The notes below the pieces were generated by a model. That model made no database searches and had not been told where the DNA came from. It saw nothing but the letters and a program-made list of their open reading frames with translations. Both the position numbers and the translations under genes were made by a program. From Chryseobacterium indologenes (lineage in GTDB: Bacteria > Bacteroidota > Bacteroidia > Flavobacteriales > Weeksellaceae), in assembly GCA_016025055.1 (NCBI GenBank), contig CP065590.1, positions 4,154,001 to 4,218,000 on the forward strand: 64,000 nucleotides of DNA, read 5' to 3'. Positions within the stretch are counted from its first letter, which is position 1, and each line of letters begins with the position of its first letter. Shown here piece after piece: positions 46,130-57,807 of the stretch.

Positions 46130-46912
46130 TTATTCTCCTTTAAAATGAGGCTCTCTCTTTTCTATGAAGGCACTTATCCCTTCGTGATGATCTTCTGTTG
46201 AAAATAATTCTCCAAACAAGGCGGCTTCCTGTTTCAGCCCGTCGTTAATGTGCAATTCAAACCCGGTATTTAGGGATTGTTTTGCCTTTGCAACGGCTAC
46301 AGGTCCTCGGGAAGCAATTGTTTCAGCCAATTTCTGCGCTTCGTTCAAAAGATCTTCCGGGGCAATCACTTGATTGACAAAACCAAATTCCCTGCATTGC
46401 AGGGCAGAATAAAATTCTCCCGAAAACACCATCTCTCTTGCCTTATAAAGTCCTACTGCTCTTGGAAGACGTTGTGTCCCTCCAAAACATGGCAGCAATC
46501 CCAGACTAACTTCAGGAAGTCCGAATTTTGCTTTTTCGCTCGCTAAAATAATATCACAGGACAAAGCAAGTTCACATCCGCCGCCCAATGCAAAGCCATT
46601 AACGGCTGCAATCACGGCAAATGGCAGAGATTCAATGGCATTAAATGCTGTTTGGGCTGTGATTGAAAATTCTTCCGCCTGTTGAGGAGTCATCTTCTGC
46701 ATCGCTTTAATATCGGCTCCTGCTACAAAAGCCTTTTCTCCGGAACCGGTAATGATCAGCACACGGATATTTTTATCAGATTTAATATGGCCGGCCAATA
46801 AAGCAAGCTCCTGTAAAACCTTTTCGTTTAAAGCATTTAATGCCTGTGGCCGGTTGATGGTTACAACACCGACATGGTTGTTTTGTTGGTATATTAATGT
46901 TTCAAATTCCAT
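46130..46912 (-). CDS. Enoyl-CoA hydratase/isomerase family (short-chain)
   Basis: A 260-residue crotonase. The oxyanion loop is AFVAGADIKAM and GFALGGGCELALSCDI. The catalytic glutamates fit FGLPEVSLGLLPCFGGTQRL. It probably hydrates methacrylyl-CoA or a related acyl-CoA in valine degradation. It is the last gene of the leftward valine/propionate run, 47 bases after mmsB. Confidence 0.9.
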   Translation of the reverse strand: MEFETLIYQQNNHVGVVTINRPQALNALNEKVLQELALLAGHIKSDKNIRVLIITGSGEKAFVAGADIKAMQKMTPQQAEEFSITAQTAFNAIESLPFAVIAAVNGFALGGGCELALSCDIILASEKAKFGLPEVSLGLLPCFGGTQRLPRAVGLYKAREMVFSGEFYSALQCREFGFVNQVIAPEDLLNEAQKLAETIASRGPVAVAKAKQSLNTGFELHINDGLKQEAALFGELFSTEDHHEGISAFIEKREPHFKGE

Positions 46913-46959: not shown

Positions 46960-47845
46960 TTAATTCCCAGCTTTATGTAAGAATTGAATGATACTTGAAA
47001 AGTCAATTTTCCCGTTTCCGGCATCGCTCCACATTCTGTAAAGATTCAATGCCGTGTTTCCTAAAGGAGTTGATGTTTTGCTTTCCAATCCTGCTTCTGC
47101 GGCCAGTCCGAGGTCTTTGGTCATAAGATCTACAGCGAAACCTCCTGAATATTCCCTGGATGCCGGAGCATTTTCCATGACTCCCGGATAAGGATTATAG
47201 ACTTCCAGAGACCAGTTTTTACCGGAACTTTTCTGCATAATCCCACTTAGAACCTTCGGGTCCAGACCATTCTTGATTCCCAGATTAATTGCTTCTGAAG
47301 TGCCGATCATGTGAATTGCCAGGAGCATATTATTACAGATTTTAGCCACCTGACCGGCTCCTGATGTCCCGGCATAAAAAATATTTTGTCCCATACATTT
47401 CAGAACGGGACGTGCTTTTTCATAATCTTCCTGCTTTCCTCCCACTATAAAAGTAAGGGTTCCGGCCTGAGCACCACCGGTTCCCCGGAAACCGGCGCAT
47501 CAATCATTCTGCAACCTTTAGAAGCCGCCAACTGAGCTACAGAACGGGCCGTAACGGCATCAATGGTACTGCTGTCGATCAATAAAGTATCGGGTTTCAG
47601 CTGGCTTATAAACTCTTCTGTATACAATTCTGCAACATGCTTACCGGAAGGCAGCATCGAGATTATAATATCTGCCTCTTTTGCTGCAGCCACCGCTGAA
47701 TCTGCGGTTTGTCCTCCTGCGGAAGCCAGTAGTTGTAATGCTGAATCTGAAAGATCAAAACCAATAACGTGATGCCTTTTTTTATAAGGTTGGCAGCCAT
47801 CGGGCCACCCATATTTCCTAATCCTATGAATGCTATATTTGACAT
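46960..47845 (-). pseudogene. mmsB: 3-hydroxyisobutyrate dehydrogenase (two frameshifts)
   Basis: It oxidises 3-hydroxyisobutyrate to methylmalonate semialdehyde. It is read in three pieces: 47663-47845 (GLGNMGGPMAANLIKK, Rossmann start), 47445-47693 (LPSGKHVAELYTEEF, SSTIDAVTARSVA, DAPVSG) and 46960-47445 (GTSGAGQVAKICNN with catalytic Lys, then the C-terminal helices). Breaks lie at the run of seven T (plus strand) 47777-47783 and at C4 47483-47486. One extra base in each restores a normal protein of about 295 residues. Two homopolymer deletions in one gene point to sequence error. Confidence 0.88.
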
Positions 47846-48344: not shown

Positions 48345-48371
48345 CCATTATCAATTTTCAATTTTCAATTT
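48345..48371. repeat. Right arm of inverted repeat
   Basis: ATTATCAATTTTCAATTTTC followed by AATTTA, the inverse of the arm at 47866-47893. It overlaps the end of the HIBCH gene, whose last codons read it. Confidence 0.55.
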
Positions 48372-49424
48372 AAAATACGAGTTAATCCATTCCTCAGTGA
48401 TTTCATTCCATGTTGCAGGGTGCCATTTGGGTGAAAGGTCCTTGTCTACCAGTAAAGCCCTCACCCCTTCTGCAAAATCAGGATGAAGACAGCATTGGCA
48501 GGAAAGGTTCAGTTCCGATTGGAATACTTCTTCCAGGCTTAAGCTTTTTCCTCGCTGCAGCTGTCTGAAAATAACGTGTGCAGAGCTTGGTGAACCGGCC
48601 TCAAGACTTTTTAAACCATTATTGATCCATTCATCTTTATCGGAATAATTGGAAAGCAGTTCTTTAAACTGCTCTGCAGAACTTACATCTTCAAACAAAC
48701 GGATAAACGGCTCATGAGCCTTTGCCTGAGATTCCGGAATAACAAATTCACGGGAAACGGTGGTAAGAATTCCAGAAACGGTGGTATGAGGGTCATTTTT
48801 CCAGTCTGCATGTTCTAAGGCTTTGATAATGGTTTCTTTTGAAGAGGATTCCACATAATAGTCGGCCAGTCCCAGAAAAACACAGTCGGGGCCGTCTAAT
48901 CGGGTTCCGGTCAGTCCCATATACATCCCATAGGCAGAAGGCATTTTATTTAAAAACCACGTTCCGCCTACATCAGGATAAAGTCCGATGGTAATTTCAG
49001 GCATGGCCAGTTTACTTTTTTCCGTTACAATGCGATGTGAAGCACCTACCATCAGGCCTATTCCTCCTCCCATGACGATTCCGTGTCCCCAGACAATTAC
49101 CGGTTTGGGATAGGTATGAATATCAAAGTCTACCTTATATTCCCTGGAAAAGAAATCATAGCAATCTTTGGGAACCTGCGTCGAATCAATACTTCTCTGA
49201 TGGATAATGACTTCATAGAGTTTTCGTACATCCCCACCGGCACAGAAGGCTTTCTCGCCTGCTCCCTGGAGGAATATACAGATCACTTCATCGGAAGTTT
49301 TCCAGGCAGTCAGGATCTTCTGCAATTCTTTGATCATCGGTAATGAAAGAGAATTGAGCGTTTTCTCTGAATTCAGGGTGATAAACCCTACTTTATTTTT
49401 TATCTCGGTTAATACTAAATTCAT
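48351..49424 (-). CDS. 3-hydroxyisobutyryl-CoA hydrolase (crotonase family)
   Basis: About 357 residues from the ATG at 49424 (MNLVLTEIKNKVGF). The crotonase core has KAFCAGGDVRKLYE, WGHGIVMGGGIGLM and SKLAMPEITIGLYPDVGGTW. A C-terminal extension is typical of HIBCH (about 340-380 residues, CLHPDFAEGVRALLVDKDL). It removes CoA so that the next step, mmsB, can act. It is cotranscribed with the ACAD gene to its right. Confidence 0.9.
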   Translation of the reverse strand: MNLVLTEIKNKVGFITLNSEKTLNSLSLPMIKELQKILTAWKTSDEVICIFLQGAGEKAFCAGGDVRKLYEVIIHQRSIDSTQVPKDCYDFFSREYKVDFDIHTYPKPVIVWGHGIVMGGGIGLMVGASHRIVTEKSKLAMPEITIGLYPDVGGTWFLNKMPSAYGMYMGLTGTRLDGPDCVFLGLADYYVESSSKETIIKALEHADWKNDPHTTVSGILTTVSREFVIPESQAKAHEPFIRLFEDVSSAEQFKELLSNYSDKDEWINNGLKSLEAGSPSSAHVIFRQLQRGKSLSLEEVFQSELNLSCQCCLHPDFAEGVRALLVDKDLSPKWHPATWNEITEEWINSYFKLKIEN

Positions 49425-49507
49425 TTTTTTAATTGAGAGTTGAAAGTGGAACATTGAGTTTTATTGGTCCAAACGATTTCCTCGGCTGCTCATTTTTCCA
49501 CTATTAC

Positions 49508-50671
49508 TTATCTGATTTGTAAAGTAGCTCCTTCTTCCAGCATTTTACGTGAAATAACGAGCTTCATAATTTCGTTGGTTCCTTCTACCACCTGATGTAC
49601 CCGTGCATCACGCATCAGCCGTTCTACAGGGAAATCCTGGGTACATCCATAGCCTCCGAGTATCTGCAAAGCTTCATTACAAATATTAAAAGACATATCT
49701 GTAGCCAGTCTTTTGGCCATGGCACAATACGTTGTCGCATTCGGGTCCTGAGAATCAAGCTTAAATGCTGCAAGGTGCACCATCTGACGGGCAGCGACAA
49801 GTTCAGTGGCCATATCTGCTATTTTAAACTGAAGAGACTGAAACTGGGAAAGTGATTTTCCAAACTGCTGTCTTTCATGCATATATCGCTGTGCCTGATT
49901 GATAGCTCCCTGGGCTGCTCCTACTGAGCATGTTCCGATATTGATCCTGCCACCGTCCAGACCCTTCAATGCAATTTTGAAACCTTCTCCCAGTTTACCC
50001 AGCAGAAAATTTTCATCGATTTCTACGTGATCCAGAAATACGAAACGGGTCGGCTGTGTATTCCATCCTAATTTTTTTTCTTTTTCACCAAAGCTGATTC
50101 CTTTTGTCTGTGCCGGTACAATGAAAGCGCTGATTCCTTTGGCTCCCGGTTCATCACCTGTACGGGCCATCACAATGAGGATATCACTTTCTCCGGCTCC
50201 TGAAATAAAAGCTTTTGTTCCGTTGATGATGTATTTGTTTCCTTTTTTTACGGCTGTTGTTTTCAATCCGGCAGCATCAGAGCCCGATCCCGGTTCTGTA
50301 AGGCAATAGGAACCTAAGAGTCTTCCAGAAGCCAGTTCAGGACATAGCTGCTGCCTTACAGGGTCTTTTCCAAACTGATCAATCATCCATGAAACCATAT
50401 TATGAATGGTGATGTAGGCTGTAGTGGACGGGCACGCAGCTGCTAATTCCTCAAATATAATGGCAGCATCTAATCTGGACAATCCCAGCCCTCCGTTTTC
50501 CTCTCCGGTATAAACCCCGCAAAATCCGAGCGCTCCGGCTTTGGTAATGGCTTCCCGTGGAAATATCTTCTTCGCATCCCATTCAGAGGCAAATGGAAAG
50601 AGTTCTTTTTCAGCAAATCTTCTGGCTGCATCCTGGAATGCCCGCTGGTCTTCATTTAGGTTAAATTCCAT
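49508..50671 (-). CDS. Acyl-CoA dehydrogenase, isobutyryl-CoA type
   Basis: A 387-residue FAD enzyme. Signatures: CLTEPGSGSDAAGLKT, FISGAGESDIL, and the catalytic Glu in VVEGTNEIMKLVI. The C-terminal helix carries QILGGYGCTQDFPVERLMRD. By neighbours (mmsA, HIBCH, mmsB, enoyl-CoA hydratase) it oxidises isobutyryl-CoA in valine degradation. Short/branched substrate assignment is by context. Confidence 0.92.
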   Translation of the reverse strand: MEFNLNEDQRAFQDAARRFAEKELFPFASEWDAKKIFPREAITKAGALGFCGVYTGEENGGLGLSRLDAAIIFEELAAACPSTTAYITIHNMVSWMIDQFGKDPVRQQLCPELASGRLLGSYCLTEPGSGSDAAGLKTTAVKKGNKYIINGTKAFISGAGESDILIVMARTGDEPGAKGISAFIVPAQTKGISFGEKEKKLGWNTQPTRFVFLDHVEIDENFLLGKLGEGFKIALKGLDGGRINIGTCSVGAAQGAINQAQRYMHERQQFGKSLSQFQSLQFKIADMATELVAARQMVHLAAFKLDSQDPNATTYCAMAKRLATDMSFNICNEALQILGGYGCTQDFPVERLMRDARVHQVVEGTNEIMKLVISRKMLEEGATLQIR

Positions 50672-50759: not shown

Positions 50760-52256
50760 CTACTTAAGGTTGATTGTCATATTGACATTACCTCCCGGTA
50801 CGTCTTCTTCAAACCATCGTGCCGTAATGGTCTTGGTTTCTGTATAAAAACGGACTCCCTGCTTCCCGTAGGAATGCAAATCGCCAAAGAATGATTTCCG
50901 CCATCCTGTAAATGAGAAAAACGGAAGCGGAACGGGAATAGGAAGGTTCACCCCTATTTGCCCTACTTCAATTTCGTGCTGGAATTTTCTGGCTGCGGCT
51001 CCCGAATTGGTAAATATGGAAGTCCCATTGCCGTAGGGATTCGCATTGATGATCCGAATAGCTTCATCTAAAGTTTCTGCTTTTAAAAGCAACAATGCCG
51101 GTCCAAAGATTTCTTCTTGATAAATATCCATTTCTGCAGAAACATTATTAAACAAGGTTGGGCCTACAAAATATCCGTTTTCATAGCCTTCAACATGGCA
51201 GTCGCTTCCGTCTAACAGGACTTCAGCACCCTGATCGTAGGCCGATTTTATTAATCTTAAAACTTTTTCTTTAGATTGTTTATTGATTAAAGGACCGTAT
51301 GCTGCAGATTCATCCGACCATACGCCAGGTTTGATCGTGCTTAACGCTTTTTTGATATCATCAACCCACTGCTGTGCCTCACCTACCAAAACAGCAACGC
51401 TGATCGCCATACAACGCTGGCCGGCTGCTCCACAAGAAGCTCCCACCAGATTATTGATCACCTGGGTTTTATTGGCATCAGGCATTACCACCATATGATT
51501 TTTAGCCCCTCCAAAAGCCTGAACTCTCTTCAGATTGGCAGTTCCCGTACGATAAACATGTTCTGCCACCGGAACGGATCCTACAAAGGAAATTGCTTTG
51601 ATTTCAGGATGGTTGAGGATATGATTGACCTGGTCTTTCGAACCATGAACAATATTCAAAACGCCCTTTGGAAAACCTGCCTGTAAAAACAGCTCGGCCA
51701 TTTTCATGGAAGTCATGGGAGTCTGCTCAGAAGGTTTTAAAATAAAGGTATTTCCACAGGCAACAGCCATCGGGAACATCCATAACGGAATCATAGCCGG
51801 AAAATTAAATGGGGTAATTCCTGCACAAACACCCAATGGCTGGATGTAACTGTAGGTATCCACTCCCCTTGCTACATTTTCTACGGTTTCTCCCATCATC
51901 AGGCTTGGAATATTGCAGGCATGTTCCACTACTTCAATTCCTCTCCAAACATCTCCCATAGCATCGGCAAAGGTTTTTCCATTTTCCTGGGACAGAATTT
52001 CAGCAATCTCTTTTTGATGTTCTTTCAAGAGTTGCTGATATTTAAGAAATAATCTGGCTCTTTCCGGTGTGGCTACTTCTTTCCAGGTTTTAAAAGCTTC
52101 ACGGGCCGCTTCAATAGCTTCGTCTATCTCCTCTGTGTGGGTTAAAGGAACCTCTGCAAGAATCTCCTGTGTAGCAGGATTTTCTACCGGAAGATATTCA
52201 GTTGCTTTACTGTCCTGAAAATTTCCGTCAATTAATATTTTTATTTTTTGCGACAT
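50760..52256 (-). CDS. mmsA: CoA-acylating methylmalonate-semialdehyde dehydrogenase
   Basis: About 498 residues from the ATG at 52256 ([13 protein letters not shown]), as earlier codons form an unlikely extension. It turns methylmalonate semialdehyde plus CoA and NAD into propionyl-CoA and CO2. The catalytic Cys is in [17 protein letters not shown], with [13 protein letters not shown] as the NAD loop and [11 protein letters not shown] in the C-terminal half. Its product feeds the methylcitrate cycle encoded just upstream. Confidence 0.95.
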
Positions 52257-52261
52257 AGTTT

Positions 52262-52371
52262 TTTGAATTGAATGTGGAGAGTCGAAAGTTGAAAATGATA
52301 GTAAAATACTATGTTTTTTGTACAGTTCCATATAGATTCATCATTTTCAACCTTCAATTTTCAACTCTCCA
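52262..52371. repeat. Low-complexity inverted repeat between mmsA and prpD
   Basis: Left GAGAGTCGAAAGTTGAAAAT and right TTCAATTTTCAACTCTCC are inverse-related arms of the same GTTGAAAR family seen at 47866-48371 and 49430-49450. There is no gene. Confidence 0.55.
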
Positions 52372-52377
52372 TTAGTA

Positions 52378-53829
52378 TTAAATTACCAGCAGGTCAACAA
52401 ATTCATTGACATCAAGGCTGATGAGTTTGTCATATTCCAAAGAATTTTCCAATACCAGTTTCTGTTGTTTTTCCGGGAAAATACGGGCAAGATTGACTTT
52501 ATATTTTTTGATCAGTTCGGGAATTCCCTCTTCTCTTCTCCGTTTGTGACCGATAGGATATTCTACCACAATTTCATCCAACACTGTCCCGTCATGAAGC
52601 TCTACGGTTACCGCATTAGCGATGGAACGTTTTTCAGGATCGTGATAATCTGTGGTAAACTGAGTGTCTTCCACACATTCTATTTTATCACGAAGAAGAT
52701 CAATTCTAGGATCCGAAGCAATATTATCTTCATAATCTGCTGCCGTCAGTCTTCCGTGAATCATAGGTACTGCTACCATATACTGAATACAGTGGTCACG
52801 GTCTGCAGGGTTATTTAAAGGTCCTTTTTTATCGATAATTCTGATAGCCGCTTCGTGAGTACGGATCGTTACTTTTTTAATATCATCTGTTGTTTTTCCA
52901 AGGTCTTTTAATTGCTGATGTAATGTCATGGCTGCTTCTACGGCAGTTTGTGAATGAAATTCGGCAGGGAAAGAGATTTTAAATAATACATTTTCCATGA
53001 CGTAAGAACCGTATTCTCTCTGGAATTTAAATTCATTTCCTTTGAATGAAACATCATAGAATCCCCATGTTTTAGCAGTTAGAACGGAAGGATAACCCAT
53101 TTCTCCGGTTTTGGCGATGAGTGCCAGACGTACGGCTCTTGAAGTCGCATCACCTGCAGCCCATGATTTACGGGAACCGGTGTTCGGGGCATGACGGTAT
53201 GTTCTTAATGACTGTCCGTCTACAAAAGCCAATGAAACAGCATTAATCAATTCATCGCGGGTTAGGCCGATCAATTTTCCCACTACTGCTGTAGAAGCCA
53301 GTTTTACCAATAACACGTGATCAAGACCTACTTTATTGAAAGAGTTTTCCAGCGCCATCACGCCCTGGATCTCATGCGCCATAATCATTGCTTCCAACAC
53401 CTGCTTCATTTTTAAAGGGGTCTTTCCTTCCGCAATCTGCGTTCTGGATAACCAGTCTGCTGTGGCCAGGATACCTCCAAGATTATCGGAAGGATGCCCC
53501 CATTCAGCAGCCAGCCATGTATCATTAAAATCCAGCCAACGGACAATAGCACCGATATTGAAAGCTGCCTGTACGGGATCTAACTGAAACTGAGTACCGG
53601 GAACCTTTGCCCCATGAGGAACCACGGTTCCTTTTACGATAGGTCCTAAAAGTTTGGTGCAGGCTGGATAAGTGAGTGCTTCCAACCCACACCCCAGGGT
53701 ATCTAAAAGACAGTAATGAGCCGTTTTCCAGGCCAAGTCGTTTTTGATTTCATAGTTTAGTACATAATCCGCAATATCTGCCAATACTTTATCCGGTTGC
53801 GGTCTTTCATTTGAAATGTGTGAACTCAT
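52378..53829 (-). CDS. prpD: 2-methylcitrate dehydratase (bifunctional with aconitate hydratase)
   Basis: A 483-residue MmgE/PrpD-family enzyme that dehydrates 2-methylcitrate to methylaconitate. Landmarks are [58 protein letters not shown] and [15 protein letters not shown]. There is a normal PrpD length and no Fe-S cluster cysteines, as expected for this family. It lies between prpC and mmsA on one strand, with 78 bases to prpC. Confidence 0.95.
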
Positions 53830-53907: not shown

Positions 53908-55062
53908 TTATTTTCTGTTGCTGATCGGGACAAATTCTTTGTTTTCAGGGCCTGTATAGTTGGCACTCGGGCGGATGATTTTTCCATCCTGTCTTTGCTC
54001 GATAATATGGGCACTCCATCCGGTTACTCTTGAAATAACAAATAATGGAGTGAACATCAGGGTTGGCACTCCCATTAAATGATAAGAAACGGCAGAGAAC
54101 CAATCCAGGTTCGGGAACATTTTCTTTTCTTCCCACATGATGGTTTCCAGTCTTTCGGCAATATTGAACAGCAGCATATCTCCGGCTTCTTCGGAAAGTT
54201 CCTGTGCAACCTTTTTAATGACAACGTTTCTAGGGTCTGATATGGTGTAAACCGGATGTCCGAATCCTATGATCACTTCTTTATTGGCAATACGTTTACG
54301 GATGTCTTCTTCCGCTTCATCCGGAGAATTGTAACGGCTTTGAATCTCAAAAGCAACTTCATTGGCTCCTCCGTGTTTTGGTCCCCTTAAAGCACCGATA
54401 GCTCCTGTGATAGCAGAATAAATATCAGAACCTGTTCCGGCAATAACACGGCTGGTAAAAGTAGAAGCATTAAATTCATGCTCTGCATACAGGTTTAAGG
54501 AAATCTGCATAGCCTTGGCCCACGAATCAGAAGGTTTCTTTCCGTGGAGTAAGTGAAGGAAGTGCCCTCCGATCGTATCGTCATCAGTTTCCACATCAAT
54601 TTCTTTTCCATTGTGGGTGTAATGATACCAGTATAATAATCCTGAACCGAAAGAAGCGAGTAATTTATCCGCAATATCCCTTGCTCCGGCAATATTGTGG
54701 TCATCTTTTTCCGGCTGAATACTTCCGATCGCAGATACCATAGAACGCATAACGTCCATAGGATGGGCAGCAGCAGGGATACTTTTTAAAATATTTCGTA
54801 CAGAATGGGGTAAACCTCTTAATGATTTTAGCTTGGCCTTGTAATTTTTCAGCTGGGCTTCTGTGGGCAACTGACCATAGATTAAAAGGTAAGCGACTTC
54901 TTCAAACTGTGTTTTTTCTGCAAGGTCCAATATATCATAGCCTCTCTAGTGCAGATCATTGCCGCTTTTTCCGACACTGCAAAGTGCTGTATTACCGGCA
55001 GCTACCCCCGAAAGTGCTACGCTTTTTTTGGGTTTAAACGTAGGTTCATTACTTGTTGACAT
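53908..55062 (-). pseudogene. prpC: 2-methylcitrate synthase, interrupted by an in-frame stop
   Basis: It condenses propionyl-CoA and oxaloacetate. From the ATG at 55062 it reads normally for 38 codons ([31 protein letters not shown]). TAG at 54946-54948 then stands where Tyr of the HYRGYDI motif is invariant. The rest is intact: [55 protein letters not shown] or TAT to TAG is a single change. It is either a nonsense mutation or a base error. It overlaps the prpB stop by 14 bases. Confidence 0.9.
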
Positions 55063-55957
55063 CATTATTCTTTTTAAAAAGGTTATCTAATTTTTGTTCA
55101 TAATCATGGTATCCGATGCTTGTGTAGAGTTCTTCTCTGGTTTGCATGGTATTGAGTACATGAGCTTGTGTACCGTCTTTGCGGATGTGCTCAAAAACAT
55201 TTTGAGCCGCTTTATTAGCCGCCCTGAAAGCTGATAGGGGATAAAGAATAAGCTCTACTCCAGCTTTTTTAAGCTCGTCGACCGTATACATCCGGATCAT
55301 CCCAAATTCTGTAATGTTTGCCAATACAGGAATTCCGGTAGCATCTACAAATTTCTGATACAAACTGATATCAGGAACGGCTTCTGCAAAAATGAAATCT
55401 GCACCGGCATCTTTGTAAGCAATGGCTCTTTCAATTGTTTTATCCAAGCCTTCAACTGCAAAAGCATCTGTTCTGGCCCCTATGACAAACTGATCGTCTG
55501 TTCGGGCATCGACAGCGGCTTTTAACCTGTCTGACATTTCATCCTTACTTACAATTTCCTTTCCGGGACGATGTCCGCAGCGTTTAGCTCCCACCTGATC
55601 TTCAATGTGAAGCGCTGCAGCACCGGCCTTAATAAGAGACTTGACTGTTCTGGCAACATTAAATGCTGAAGGTCCAAAGCCCGTATCTACATCAACTATC
55701 AGCGGCAAATCACAAACATTGGTAATGCGCTGAATATCTGTCAATACATCTTCTAGGGTGGTGATTCCCAGATCGGGAATTCCCAAAGAACCGGCAGCAA
55801 CTCCTCCTCCCGAAAGATAAATGGCATTGAAACCTGCCTGCTGTGCCAATAATGCATGATTGGCATTGATGGTACCTACAATCTGGAGAGGATTTTCTTT
55901 TTGCATCGCCTCCCGAAACCGCAGTCCGGGCGACTCTAAGCGTTCATTTTTAGTCAT
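55049..55957 (-). CDS. prpB: 2-methylisocitrate lyase
   Basis: A 302-residue isocitrate-lyase-family enzyme that splits 2-methylisocitrate into pyruvate and succinate. The active-site Cys is in [10 protein letters not shown]. The metal and substrate loops are [34 protein letters not shown] and [11 protein letters not shown]. It is the first gene after the cobalamin riboswitch. The gene overlaps prpC by 14 bases, so the two are translationally coupled. Confidence 0.95.
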
Positions 55958-56354
55958 TGTTAATATTTATCATTTAGTTAAATAGGTATTTGTAATGAGG
56001 GTTGAGCTATAGCTGCCTGTCGGAAATCCGATGCGTGGAATCAGTTAAAATGCTATGTATAAAACATTTTCCGATCTCTACCTGTTGTTTCAGATTGAGA
56101 TAGACGGGATTGTGAATGGGCATATTTGTCAACTTTTTAAGGATTAAACCATATAAAGTTCCTGTCAGGCTTCACAATACTTTAGGGGAAATAAAAATTA
56201 AGGAAAGGAAAATATGTTTATAGGTTAATAGCAGATGTATTGCATCATTCATCTATCTCAACAATAGGATGAGCACATAAAAGTATAATCACACTGTTAT
56301 CTATATCATATCATACCTGACTATAAGCTTCAGACCGCGAAAGCATCGTCAATT
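55958..56354 (-). other. Long leader between riboswitch and prpB
   Basis: About 400 bases separate the riboswitch from the prpB start. Several minor open frames exist on the minus strand (for example 56007-56123, about 38 codons), but none is convincing. The leader could carry the expression platform, or the riboswitch may have lost its original gene. Confidence 0.5.
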
Positions 56355-56525
56355 CAAAACAGGCAGGTCTCCTGACTTGTAACAGTTTTTATCTTCCTTC
56401 CCATTTACAGAGCAAACAGTGGACATGATGTGATAAAAACCTTGGTGTGTTACTTACAGTTGCGCGACAGTTCGTGATTTGCACACGATTCCCTTTTAAT
56501 ACACAGCTAAGTGTAACCAGTTTTG
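56355..56525 (-). promoter_or_regulatory. Cobalamin (adenosylcobalamin-class) riboswitch
   Basis: Reading the minus strand, the conserved core appears in order: AAAGGGAAT, then GTGTGCAAATCACG, then CTGTCGCGCAACTGTAA, and the B12 box AAGTCAGGAGACCTGCC (56362-56378). Outer arms CAAAAC (56520-56525) and GTTTTG (56355-56360) close P1. The transcript runs leftwards to prpB-prpC-prpD. High B12 should repress. Confidence 0.92.
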
Positions 56526-56990
56526 GTTGATAAAGAAGGTGTTAAGAACTCCTTGGTGGTAAATATAGACATTTTATTGAAACAGCCGCATCTGGAATTG
56601 TTTTTTATTTTAAAAAAGCTTTAAACCATTGAAAATATGGGTGATATTTTCAATTAAAGCTTTTATTTTGAAAGGAAATAATAGTTGATTTTAACAATAT
56701 TTGTAATTTTTTTAACACCAAAAATTATGCTTTGAATAGAAAGCGATTCACTTCTTTTTATTTTACTGATGAAAATCATGTTATCTATTTGTTAAGTTTT
56801 GAGACTTATCACAGGCTTTATGATGAATGATCTGAAAGGCGGATTTTTCTGTTCTGACTGGCAGCTCATTTAAATATTTTGCTTCAAATCCTTAAAATGA
56901 CACTTCATGATCCTTAAAATACACTTGATTCACAAAACTGATCGCCTTGATCATTAAAATTTCTTGCTTTGTCCTGAAAAAACCGACAAA
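56526..56990. other. Gene-free AT-rich region
   Basis: About 460 bases with no credible gene. It should hold the promoter for the riboswitch transcript to the left and for the small membrane protein to the right. A TTG in frame at 56964 is not used as start. Confidence 0.5.
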
Positions 56991-57324: not shown

Positions 57325-57807
57325 TTATAAAGAAGAAATGTATACTTCTATTTTTGTTCCATCGTAATTAAAAGTTCCATCTTCATTCTTTTTGCCTAAT
57401 TCCCACTTGAAATCTACAGGTCTATCCCATCCTACTCCTAGTTTTCCTCCATTCACGGAGCGGGCGTAATCTATGTTTTCGGTCGTAATTGCAGAATGAA
57501 AGAAAGTTTTGTCTATCAGCCTATAGAATCCAAGGGCTTTTCCTTTAGGGATTACGGAATAGCCGTCCCACTTTTCTCCTCCCATGTAGTCGAACTTTCT
57601 CAGCCATGCCTGACCTGTAAGTTCTGATAAATCATTGGGACTGATGCTGGCGCCTCTCATATAAAGTGTATACGCTACTACATCATGACAAACTCCGGTG
57701 TTGTATTTGCTGATATTCTCAAAGCCTGCAAGAAGTGCATTGGCAACAGTGGCTCTTTCCGAAGGGCCTAATTGAGCTTTCGTAGCTCCTTCTGGTGTTA
57801 ATGACAT
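57325..57807 (-). CDS. Uncharacterised protein with possible papain-fold (NlpC/CHAP-like) pattern
   Basis: A 160-residue protein without a signal peptide. Cys40 begins a helix in NTGVCHDVVAYTLYMRG. The later stretch VIPKGKALGFYRLIDKTFFH with His104 (HSAITT) has the order seen in NlpC/P60 or CHAP cysteine peptidases (Cys helix, then a beta strand with His). No Asn/Asp third residue is clear. This could be a toxin effector, an amidase, or something unrelated. It is a single leftward gene. Confidence 0.5.
   Translation of the reverse strand: MSLTPEGATKAQLGPSERATVANALLAGFENISKYNTGVCHDVVAYTLYMRGASISPNDLSELTGQAWLRKFDYMGGEKWDGYSVIPKGKALGFYRLIDKTFFHSAITTENIDYARSVNGGKLGVGWDRPVDFKWELGKKNEDGTFNYDGTKIEVYISSL

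Follow-up and report, generated by a model that had tools for sequence, protein, structure and literature searches.

We describe here a cobalamin riboswitch that lies directly ahead of the 2-methylcitrate cycle genes prpBCD in Chryseobacterium indologenes, within a 64,000-nucleotide stretch of contig CP065590.1 (assembly GCA_016025055.1, forward-strand positions 4,154,001 to 4,218,000; this whole stretch is referred to as the window, and coordinates are counted from its first letter). It is very probably a functional class-I switch that represses prpBCD when B12 is present, directing propionyl-CoA through the B12-dependent methylmalonyl-CoA mutase route. The aptamer is situated at 56345–56536 on the minus strand and matches Rfam family RF00174 with 105.3 bits (E 2.5e-25; gathering score 31.5 bits), the sole Rfam match at or above its gathering score in the window. 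The match spans the covariance model from end to end (1–189 of 189), with both the core and the B12 box (AAGTCAGGAGACCTGCC, 56362–56378, minus strand, located by the Rfam alignment and by reading of the sequence), as is characteristic of class I. A preliminary description of this DNA had recognized a full cobalamin core ending in the B12 box at 56355–56525 of the minus strand and a leader of about 400 bases; the Rfam match bears out the former, and we measure 404 nt from the B12 box to the prpB ATG, within the range of 337–479 nt seen across the 34 prpB leaders compared below. By analogy with metE and other B12-independent isozymes that are governed by cobalamin switches of the kissing-loop kind, the element would be expected to bind cobalamin and to turn its genes off in response.

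The riboswitch and prpB stay together throughout the genus, a linkage that the preliminary description had proposed to look for. Among 148 Chryseobacterium genomes including this one, 27 encode prpB (E <= 1e-60), and RF00174 is present at the prpB locus in all 27 (94.0–105.4 bits). A search of the family (246 genomes, 29 with prpB) provided 12 loci additional to the genus set, of which seven have RF00174, these being all three from further congeners and four of the nine others. The four are from one genus, in which four of five prpB-encoding genomes carry the switch, and which we infer to be Elizabethkingia, given that its prpB start and the distance of its box recur at three named Elizabethkingia loci. 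At all 34 positive loci an open prpB frame lies 3’ of the aptamer on the same strand, and the B12 box and core precede prpB in 16 of 16 named Chryseobacterium and Elizabethkingia loci, a set that overlaps the 34. Because there are just five RF00174 sites in the whole 4.92 Mb genome, and the placement recurs in 27 of 27 and three of three loci within the genus, the probability that it arose by chance is negligible.

The five RF00174 sites of this genome precede a TonB receptor (L001), a 4HBT thioesterase (L002), prpB (L003), a second TonB receptor (L004, its gene being named from its relative L184), and metE (L005), and the relationships among these aptamers are informative. We constructed an aptamer tree of 54 rows, 12 of them from the 34 prpB loci (10 of the 64 rows chosen were dropped as the core pattern was not found), in which the prpB, metE, thioesterase, and mesX aptamers form one branch of 32 rows with support of 100/99, separate from three branches associated with transporters and secreted proteins. 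Within the branch, metE groups with mesX (99/97) and the thioesterase aptamers group together (100/99), the order of these relative to prpB is not settled by the tree, and the prpB trait needs two changes. L218 and L017 are flagged as long branches, and the transporter branches are also long, such that the program warns of false joining. On this tree we take the prpB switch to descend from the same lineage as the metE and thioesterase switches, and the transporter-type switches of this genome (L001 and L004) share its Rfam family but differ from it in aptamer branch. The loop sequences agree with this arrangement. Loop L5 (UCGCG, 56463–56467, minus strand), one half of the kissing loop, is invariant in 34 of 34 prpB leaders, and its complement L13 (CGCGG, 56335–56339) is the loop of the P13 hairpin of the expression platform (UGAC-GCUU/AAGC-GUCA, 56318–56351, minus strand); the pairing of L5 UCGCG with L13 CGCG(A/G) is preserved in all 34, as judged by sequence complementarity alone. 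The same combination is found in eight of ten metE leaders (L5 was not parsed in the other two) and in the four thioesterase leaders examined, and the single mesX leader has L5 UCGCG with L13 CGCGU. The transporter-type L001 has L5 UCCCCG and an L13 with GGAGGA close to the start codon, from which we infer a translational design.

Other members of the family were encountered along the way. L002 (C1:344375-344555), of the metE-type branch, is ahead of a 127-residue 4HBT thioesterase; the B12 box together with the AACTTTCGCG motif occurs in 138 of the 148 genomes of the genus, and a thioesterase is behind 23 of the 35 riboswitch loci listed, those for congeners being the best-scoring ones. The thioesterase is thereby indicated as a further candidate B12-off gene. 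L218 of Pedobacter sp. BAL39 is a same-branch riboswitch ahead of MesX (PF08908, 566 bits), which is presumably linked to a B12-free methionine synthase system. At L183, L188, L205, L192, L021, L023, and L025 cobalamin riboswitches precede similar predicted secreted proteins; both of those scanned (L183 and L192) have a Por_Secre_tail sorting domain, and L192 also has DUF5074.

The leader downstream of the aptamer is unevenly conserved. Among the Chryseobacterium leaders, mean identity amounts to 90% for the aptamer and 94% for P13; it drops to 54% in the mid-leader, rises to 74% in a distal block, and is 40% after the block. The corresponding values in comparison with the Elizabethkingia-like loci are 81, 80, 35, 41, and 14%. 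Just 5’ of the aptamer there is a candidate promoter -7 box (TATATTTA, 56560–56567, minus strand), which is near the consensus TAnnTTTG given for flavobacterial promoters in the consulted portion of PMC9723704, and which directly precedes the aptamer at a similar distance in all 34 prpB loci. The distal block is composed of four segments and is located 183–197 nt past the B12 box in 30 of the 34 leaders. Segment 2 (GUAUUGUGAAGC, 56169–56180, minus strand) resembles the 3’ arm of P13 and is complementary to its 5’ half, making it a candidate anti-P13 sequence; over the 30 leaders it pairs with the P13 5’ arm in 97.7% of cells, as against 29–45% when slid by 1–3 positions. Segments 3 (AACUUUAUAU) and 4 (UUAAAAAGUU), at 56131–56160 of the minus strand, could form a weak U-tailed 2:3 hairpin (93.3% of cells paired, 79.8% when slid by one) or a competing A-U 3:4 hairpin. 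In the latter, both sides have changed at four pairs, in five cells (sliding by -1 yields as many), and one of 500 shuffles attains its covariation score. We also considered the per-leader duplex energies as support for the anti-P13 helix and rejected them, as they are mostly no better than those of shuffled leaders, and its in-register conservation is thus the whole of the case for it.

These features suggest a plausible mechanism, which we put forward tentatively and regard as somewhat less than an even prospect. Binding of B12 would lock P13 through the L5–L13 kissing loop, and the locked P13 would leave the distal GUGAAG segment available for a U-tailed hairpin, GAAGUU...AACUUUUU, at which transcription would stop; without B12, GUGAAG would pair with the 5’ half of P13 and transcription would continue into prpB. 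The expected B12-off sign follows from the four-segment arrangement only if the 2:3 hairpin is a terminator. The metE switch of Priestia megaterium is described, in the part of PMC10653944 consulted, as using P13/antiterminator/terminator logic, and the pairing proposed for the prpB leader would likewise be a mutually exclusive choice between P13 and anti-P13. It differs in that the alternative partner is about 190 nt past the B12 box and the candidate terminator is weak and A-U rich.

There are several observations that sit uneasily with a functional prpBCD switch acting in this manner. Within the Elizabethkingia-like group one prpB genome (L090) has no switch at prpB, and the remaining four prpB-encoding genomes of the family, from three genera, are without RF00174. 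Sampling more widely (346 genomes of the order, 12 with prpB and five of these outside the family; 375 genomes of the class, 19 with prpB and 18 of these outside the family), we ran a motif scan that took in Proteobacteria as well and found a B12 switch at none of 77 prpB loci, the same scan recovering 27 of 27 controls; five of the 77 are shared with the family set, and some loci (e.g. L157) end near prpB. At 15 named loci from Bacteroidota other than Chryseobacterium and Elizabethkingia, Rfam found no cobalamin riboswitch, and L132 was covered by motif alone. The linkage of riboswitch and prpB thus looks lineage-specific. In the assembly itself, prpC contains an in-frame stop at 54946–54948, which could mean either a dead methylcitrate pathway in this strain or a fault in the assembly. 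The copies of prpC and mmsB in relatives are open, unlike those here; and because a TonB-receptor gene that follows one of the other riboswitches in this genome likewise appears split (it is open in a relative) and genome completeness is 97% as compared to 99–100% for most congeners listed, assembly error is as likely as decay. The preliminary description had held that a terminator or separate promoter between switch and prpB would undermine control, and a consensus scan of 55900–56700 found no minus-strand terminator between the two and a lone minus-strand sigma-70-type match at chance level, a consensus that is uninformative for flavobacterial signals. There is no TAnnTTTG box in the leader of this genome either, but such a box is within 10 of the 34 leaders, eight of them at +87 to +97, and a second, internal promoter past the aptamer is possible in these. 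As for the proposed pairings, the distal block is at 138–139 nt in just five of ten metE leaders (and at 366 nt in one more) and was not recognized in the four Elizabethkingia-like leaders. No pair of the anti-P13 helix is changed on both sides, column shuffles score at least as well as observed in 500 of 500, and the duplex energies are ordinary, the observed value being matched by 3 to 147 of 200 shuffles, depending on the leader. Likewise, no covariation is seen in the 2:3 hairpin, a weak one at -3.5 to -4.7 kcal/mol across the five leaders in which it was folded.

The weakness of the intrinsic hairpin invites consideration of Rho-dependent termination, in which a pyrimidine-rich, G-poor stretch before the distal block would be exposed when P13 locks. 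This leader includes a 60-nt segment with 14 C but a single G, and the leader alignment shows conservation of a CCTTTCC...TTTTTCTTTCTC-like tract; G-poor, A-T-rich leaders are common by chance, however, and the C/G count is from this leader only, so we consider this explanation unlikely. Translational control through a small open reading frame (ORF), starting just past the distal block and ending near the prpB start in the style of the Mycobacterium tuberculosis ppe2 upstream ORF (uORF), seems more improbable still. An interplay of B12 riboswitch and uORF has been described (PMC11260477, seen in part), and 17 of the 34 leaders contain an ORF of 63–79 residues that begins at the equivalent position and stops between -15 and +14 nt relative to the prpB start. 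The other 17, however, have no such ORF or a much shorter one (in the window a candidate of 38 residues at 56007–56123, minus strand, between the distal block and prpB), the median dN/dS values are 0.57–0.78 in three groups with nine single-base gaps in one of them, and the value of 0.29 comes from the sole pair of this genome and L037. Tried as a coding leader peptide, the small ORF is not convincing, being present at such length in half of the leaders and showing little coding constraint by dN/dS. We note that each of the four Elizabethkingia-like leaders (L087, L076, L085, and L080) has a different candidate ORF of 37 residues (MIRILFFDN...), which starts 47–48 nt beyond the B12 box.

A more radical alternative, raised as a caveat in the preliminary description, casts the riboswitch as a relic, left behind by a neighbouring transporter gene since lost and exerting no control over prpB. 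The leader is long and its 3’ part poorly conserved (40% within the genus), and Pedobacter cryoconitis suggests that decay ahead of prpB can occur, with a P13-like sequence kept in the absence of an Rfam aptamer. But the linkage within the genus, the constraint on aptamer and P13 (81% and 80%, versus 14–41% beyond P13, to the Elizabethkingia-like loci), and the persistence of the linkage where the downstream neighbours are gone (L103 and L105) are not what a relic predicts. The relic explanation also does not fit the lineage, because the aptamer falls in the metE/thioesterase/mesX branch with metE-type L5 and L13 rather than among the transporter types. The aptamer tree, the metE-type kissing loop and P13, and the conservation of both elements contradict the caveat, and we regard it as very improbable. 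In P. cryoconitis itself (L112, 9690–9830) there is a B12-box-like stretch with a metE-type P13-like hairpin, the box being 212 nt before prpB, and Rfam gives no cobalamin family match even at E 10; this leader is perhaps a decayed or highly divergent switch, perhaps caught in decay.

If repression of prpBCD by B12 is the preferred reading, how far the control extends downstream is a further consideration. In the window prpB, prpC, and prpD are followed by a run of valine-degradation genes, and the whole of it could form one switch-controlled operon that ties valine breakdown to B12 status. The eight genes are in conserved order and direction, with the valine genes behind prpBCD, in 14 of 16 named loci; the gaps between genes are short in C. 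indologenes and Elizabethkingia miricola; and 12 of the 13 loci scored have no TAnnTTTG between prpD and the next long frame, the exception being L103, which is without an mmsA match. On the other hand, a strong hairpin with a long inverted repeat follows prpD (52276–52371, minus strand; -32.2 kcal/mol for the gap, z -5.6 versus single-base shuffles) and possibly bounds the unit. A hairpin follows prpD in 13 of the 14 gaps folded (z -3.3 to -7.6 against the same kind of shuffle; -1.3 in L103), its arms vary between species groups, and in E. miricola (L102) it has a terminator-like form. L103 and L105 keep the switch and prpBCD with no valine gene downstream at E 1e-20 in the sequence examined, L105 retaining a broken mmsA-like start. 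At the 15 other Bacteroidota loci no valine-run gene is beside prp, except for a distant acyl-CoA dehydrogenase homologue on the opposite strand in two, and L126 has no prpD match. It would also make little sense to stop valine breakdown while B12 permits use of its product. A single operon is accordingly a minority possibility, and because of the hairpin in 13 of 14 gaps and the lack of valine genes in two of 16 named loci, control of the valine run is doubtful. By its distribution prpBCD is the constant partner of the switch, and we limit the firm claim to these three genes; the earlier reading of a B12-off switch on the B12-free route is supported for prpBCD, and its reach into the valine genes is doubtful.

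Cobalamin riboswitches on B12-free isozymes, metE and nrd genes among them, are well known. Isozymes of B12-dependent enzymes are listed as one target class in PMC3766115, the main text of which contains neither methylcitrate nor propion- in the portion consulted, and the four cobalamin riboswitches of Xylanibacter ruminicola are reported in PMC11575231, as far as consulted, with none beside propionate-pathway genes. The methylcitrate pathway is an established corrinoid-free alternative to the mutase (PMC11287211, consulted in part), and the preliminary description had noted that propionyl-CoA can be used by either route. Both appear to be available: the mutase family PF01642 is matched in 148 of 148 genomes of the genus and three times in this one, at the level of the family rather than of substrate specificity, so that the B12-free alternative downstream of the switch coexists with the family of its B12-dependent counterpart, and both routes appear to be present in every prpB-encoding congener. 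Matches to the metH family are found in this genome as well, in addition to metE with its riboswitch, and the cobJ/cbiH model, the one biosynthetic gene looked for, is below cut-off (47.3 versus 246 bits), which fits salvage of B12.

The nearest comparison is with M. tuberculosis, where, in the portions of PMC10924821 and PMC12713380 consulted, B12 represses prpR, prpDC, and metE within the cluster prpR-prpDC-Rv1132-metE. There, too, B12 lowers the expression of methylcitrate cycle genes situated beside metE; in five of the 16 named genomes examined here the prpB riboswitch is followed, about 11 kb downstream and on the same strand, by that of metE, illustrating that metE and prpBCD as B12-free functions can be neighbours, and in the present genome the two are 241 kb apart. 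The M. tuberculosis prpDC genes are under the transcription factor PrpR, the two B12 riboswitches named in the accessible part of PMC11260477 are on metE and ppe2, and we found no riboswitch reported on prpDC in the portions of the literature examined, whereas the Chryseobacterium switch is directly ahead of prpB. The prpR-prpDC-metE cluster as a precedent for B12-lowered output, and the P. megaterium metE switch as a precedent for mechanism, support the B12-off reading. With the metE riboswitches (that of P. megaterium and L005 here) the prpB switch shares aptamer family, L5–L13 kissing loop, and a B12-independent alternative downstream, and the Chryseobacterium metE leaders also share the P13 sequence and in five of ten cases the distal block. 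It differs from them in that the target is a three-gene alternative pathway rather than a single isozyme, and in the spacing between B12 box and start codon, which in this genome is about twofold greater (404 nt for prpB versus 199 nt for metE). The system is of a known kind, a cobalamin riboswitch on a B12-independent alternative, and what appears to be new is the methylcitrate cycle, a whole pathway, as its direct target. The preliminary description did not recall a B12-off switch on the B12-free route in flavobacteria, and our search of the open-access literature, in which most papers were listed by title only and which did not extend to supplements or subscription papers, likewise found no cobalamin riboswitch on prp genes; the propionate branch is absent among the isozyme-switch targets in the parts of the literature examined.

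The shared aptamer lineage and kissing-loop/P13 design of the metE, prpBCD, and acyl-CoA thioesterase switches raise the possibility that a B12-off regulon arose by duplication of one switch, and that under B12 scarcity its members together redirect both methionine synthesis and propionyl-CoA. Its prpB and metE members would act at a distance, by means of a common attenuator of four segments: about 140–190 nt downstream, a copy of the 3’ arm of P13 would compete for P13. We offer this as a conjecture that could well prove wrong. A switch placed directly on prpBCD would provide a simple test system for the choice that a cell makes between two routes of propionyl-CoA use, and the sequence signature of a metE-type P13 with a CGCG loop, as opposed to the transporter type, may tell apart the B12-off isozyme switches and the uptake switches of these bacteria.

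The genes downstream of the switch are assigned as follows, all on the minus strand. Methylisocitrate lyase, prpB, is at 55049–55957 (TIGR02317, 415 bits, cut-off 354.4), 2-methylcitrate synthase, prpC, at 53908–55065 (NF009006, 628 bits over its open part, cut-off 550), and 2-methylcitrate dehydratase, prpD, at 52378–53829 (TIGR02330, 864 bits, cut-off 458). These are followed by the methylmalonate-semialdehyde dehydrogenase gene mmsA at 50760–52331 (TIGR01722, 803 bits, cut-off 448.5), the true start of which is likely near 52256 by comparison with relatives, and by a putative acyl-CoA dehydrogenase gene at 49508–50671 (best match NF042972, 380 bits, under the curated cut-off). The 3-hydroxyisobutyryl-CoA hydrolase (HIBCH) gene is at 48351–49454 (NF004127, 348 bits, cut-off 274), and the C-terminal part of the 3-hydroxyisobutyrate dehydrogenase gene mmsB is at 46960–47445 (TIGR01692, 237.5 bits over the C-terminal half, under cut-off), upstream of which mmsB is disrupted by frameshifts (region 46960–47844). 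A putative enoyl-CoA hydratase gene at 46130–46912 (best match NF004475, 320 bits, under the cut-off of 394) completes the run. The gene order proposed initially is therefore present on one strand, but prpC and mmsB are not intact, and a small gene for a 23S rRNA-intervening-sequence protein (PF05635, 47960–48319, plus strand) between HIBCH and mmsB had not been listed. Upstream of the riboswitch, the next larger minus-strand ORF (57325–57807) encodes a 160-residue protein with similarity to the deamidase family TecA (NF040972, 118 bits, under the cut-off of 220).

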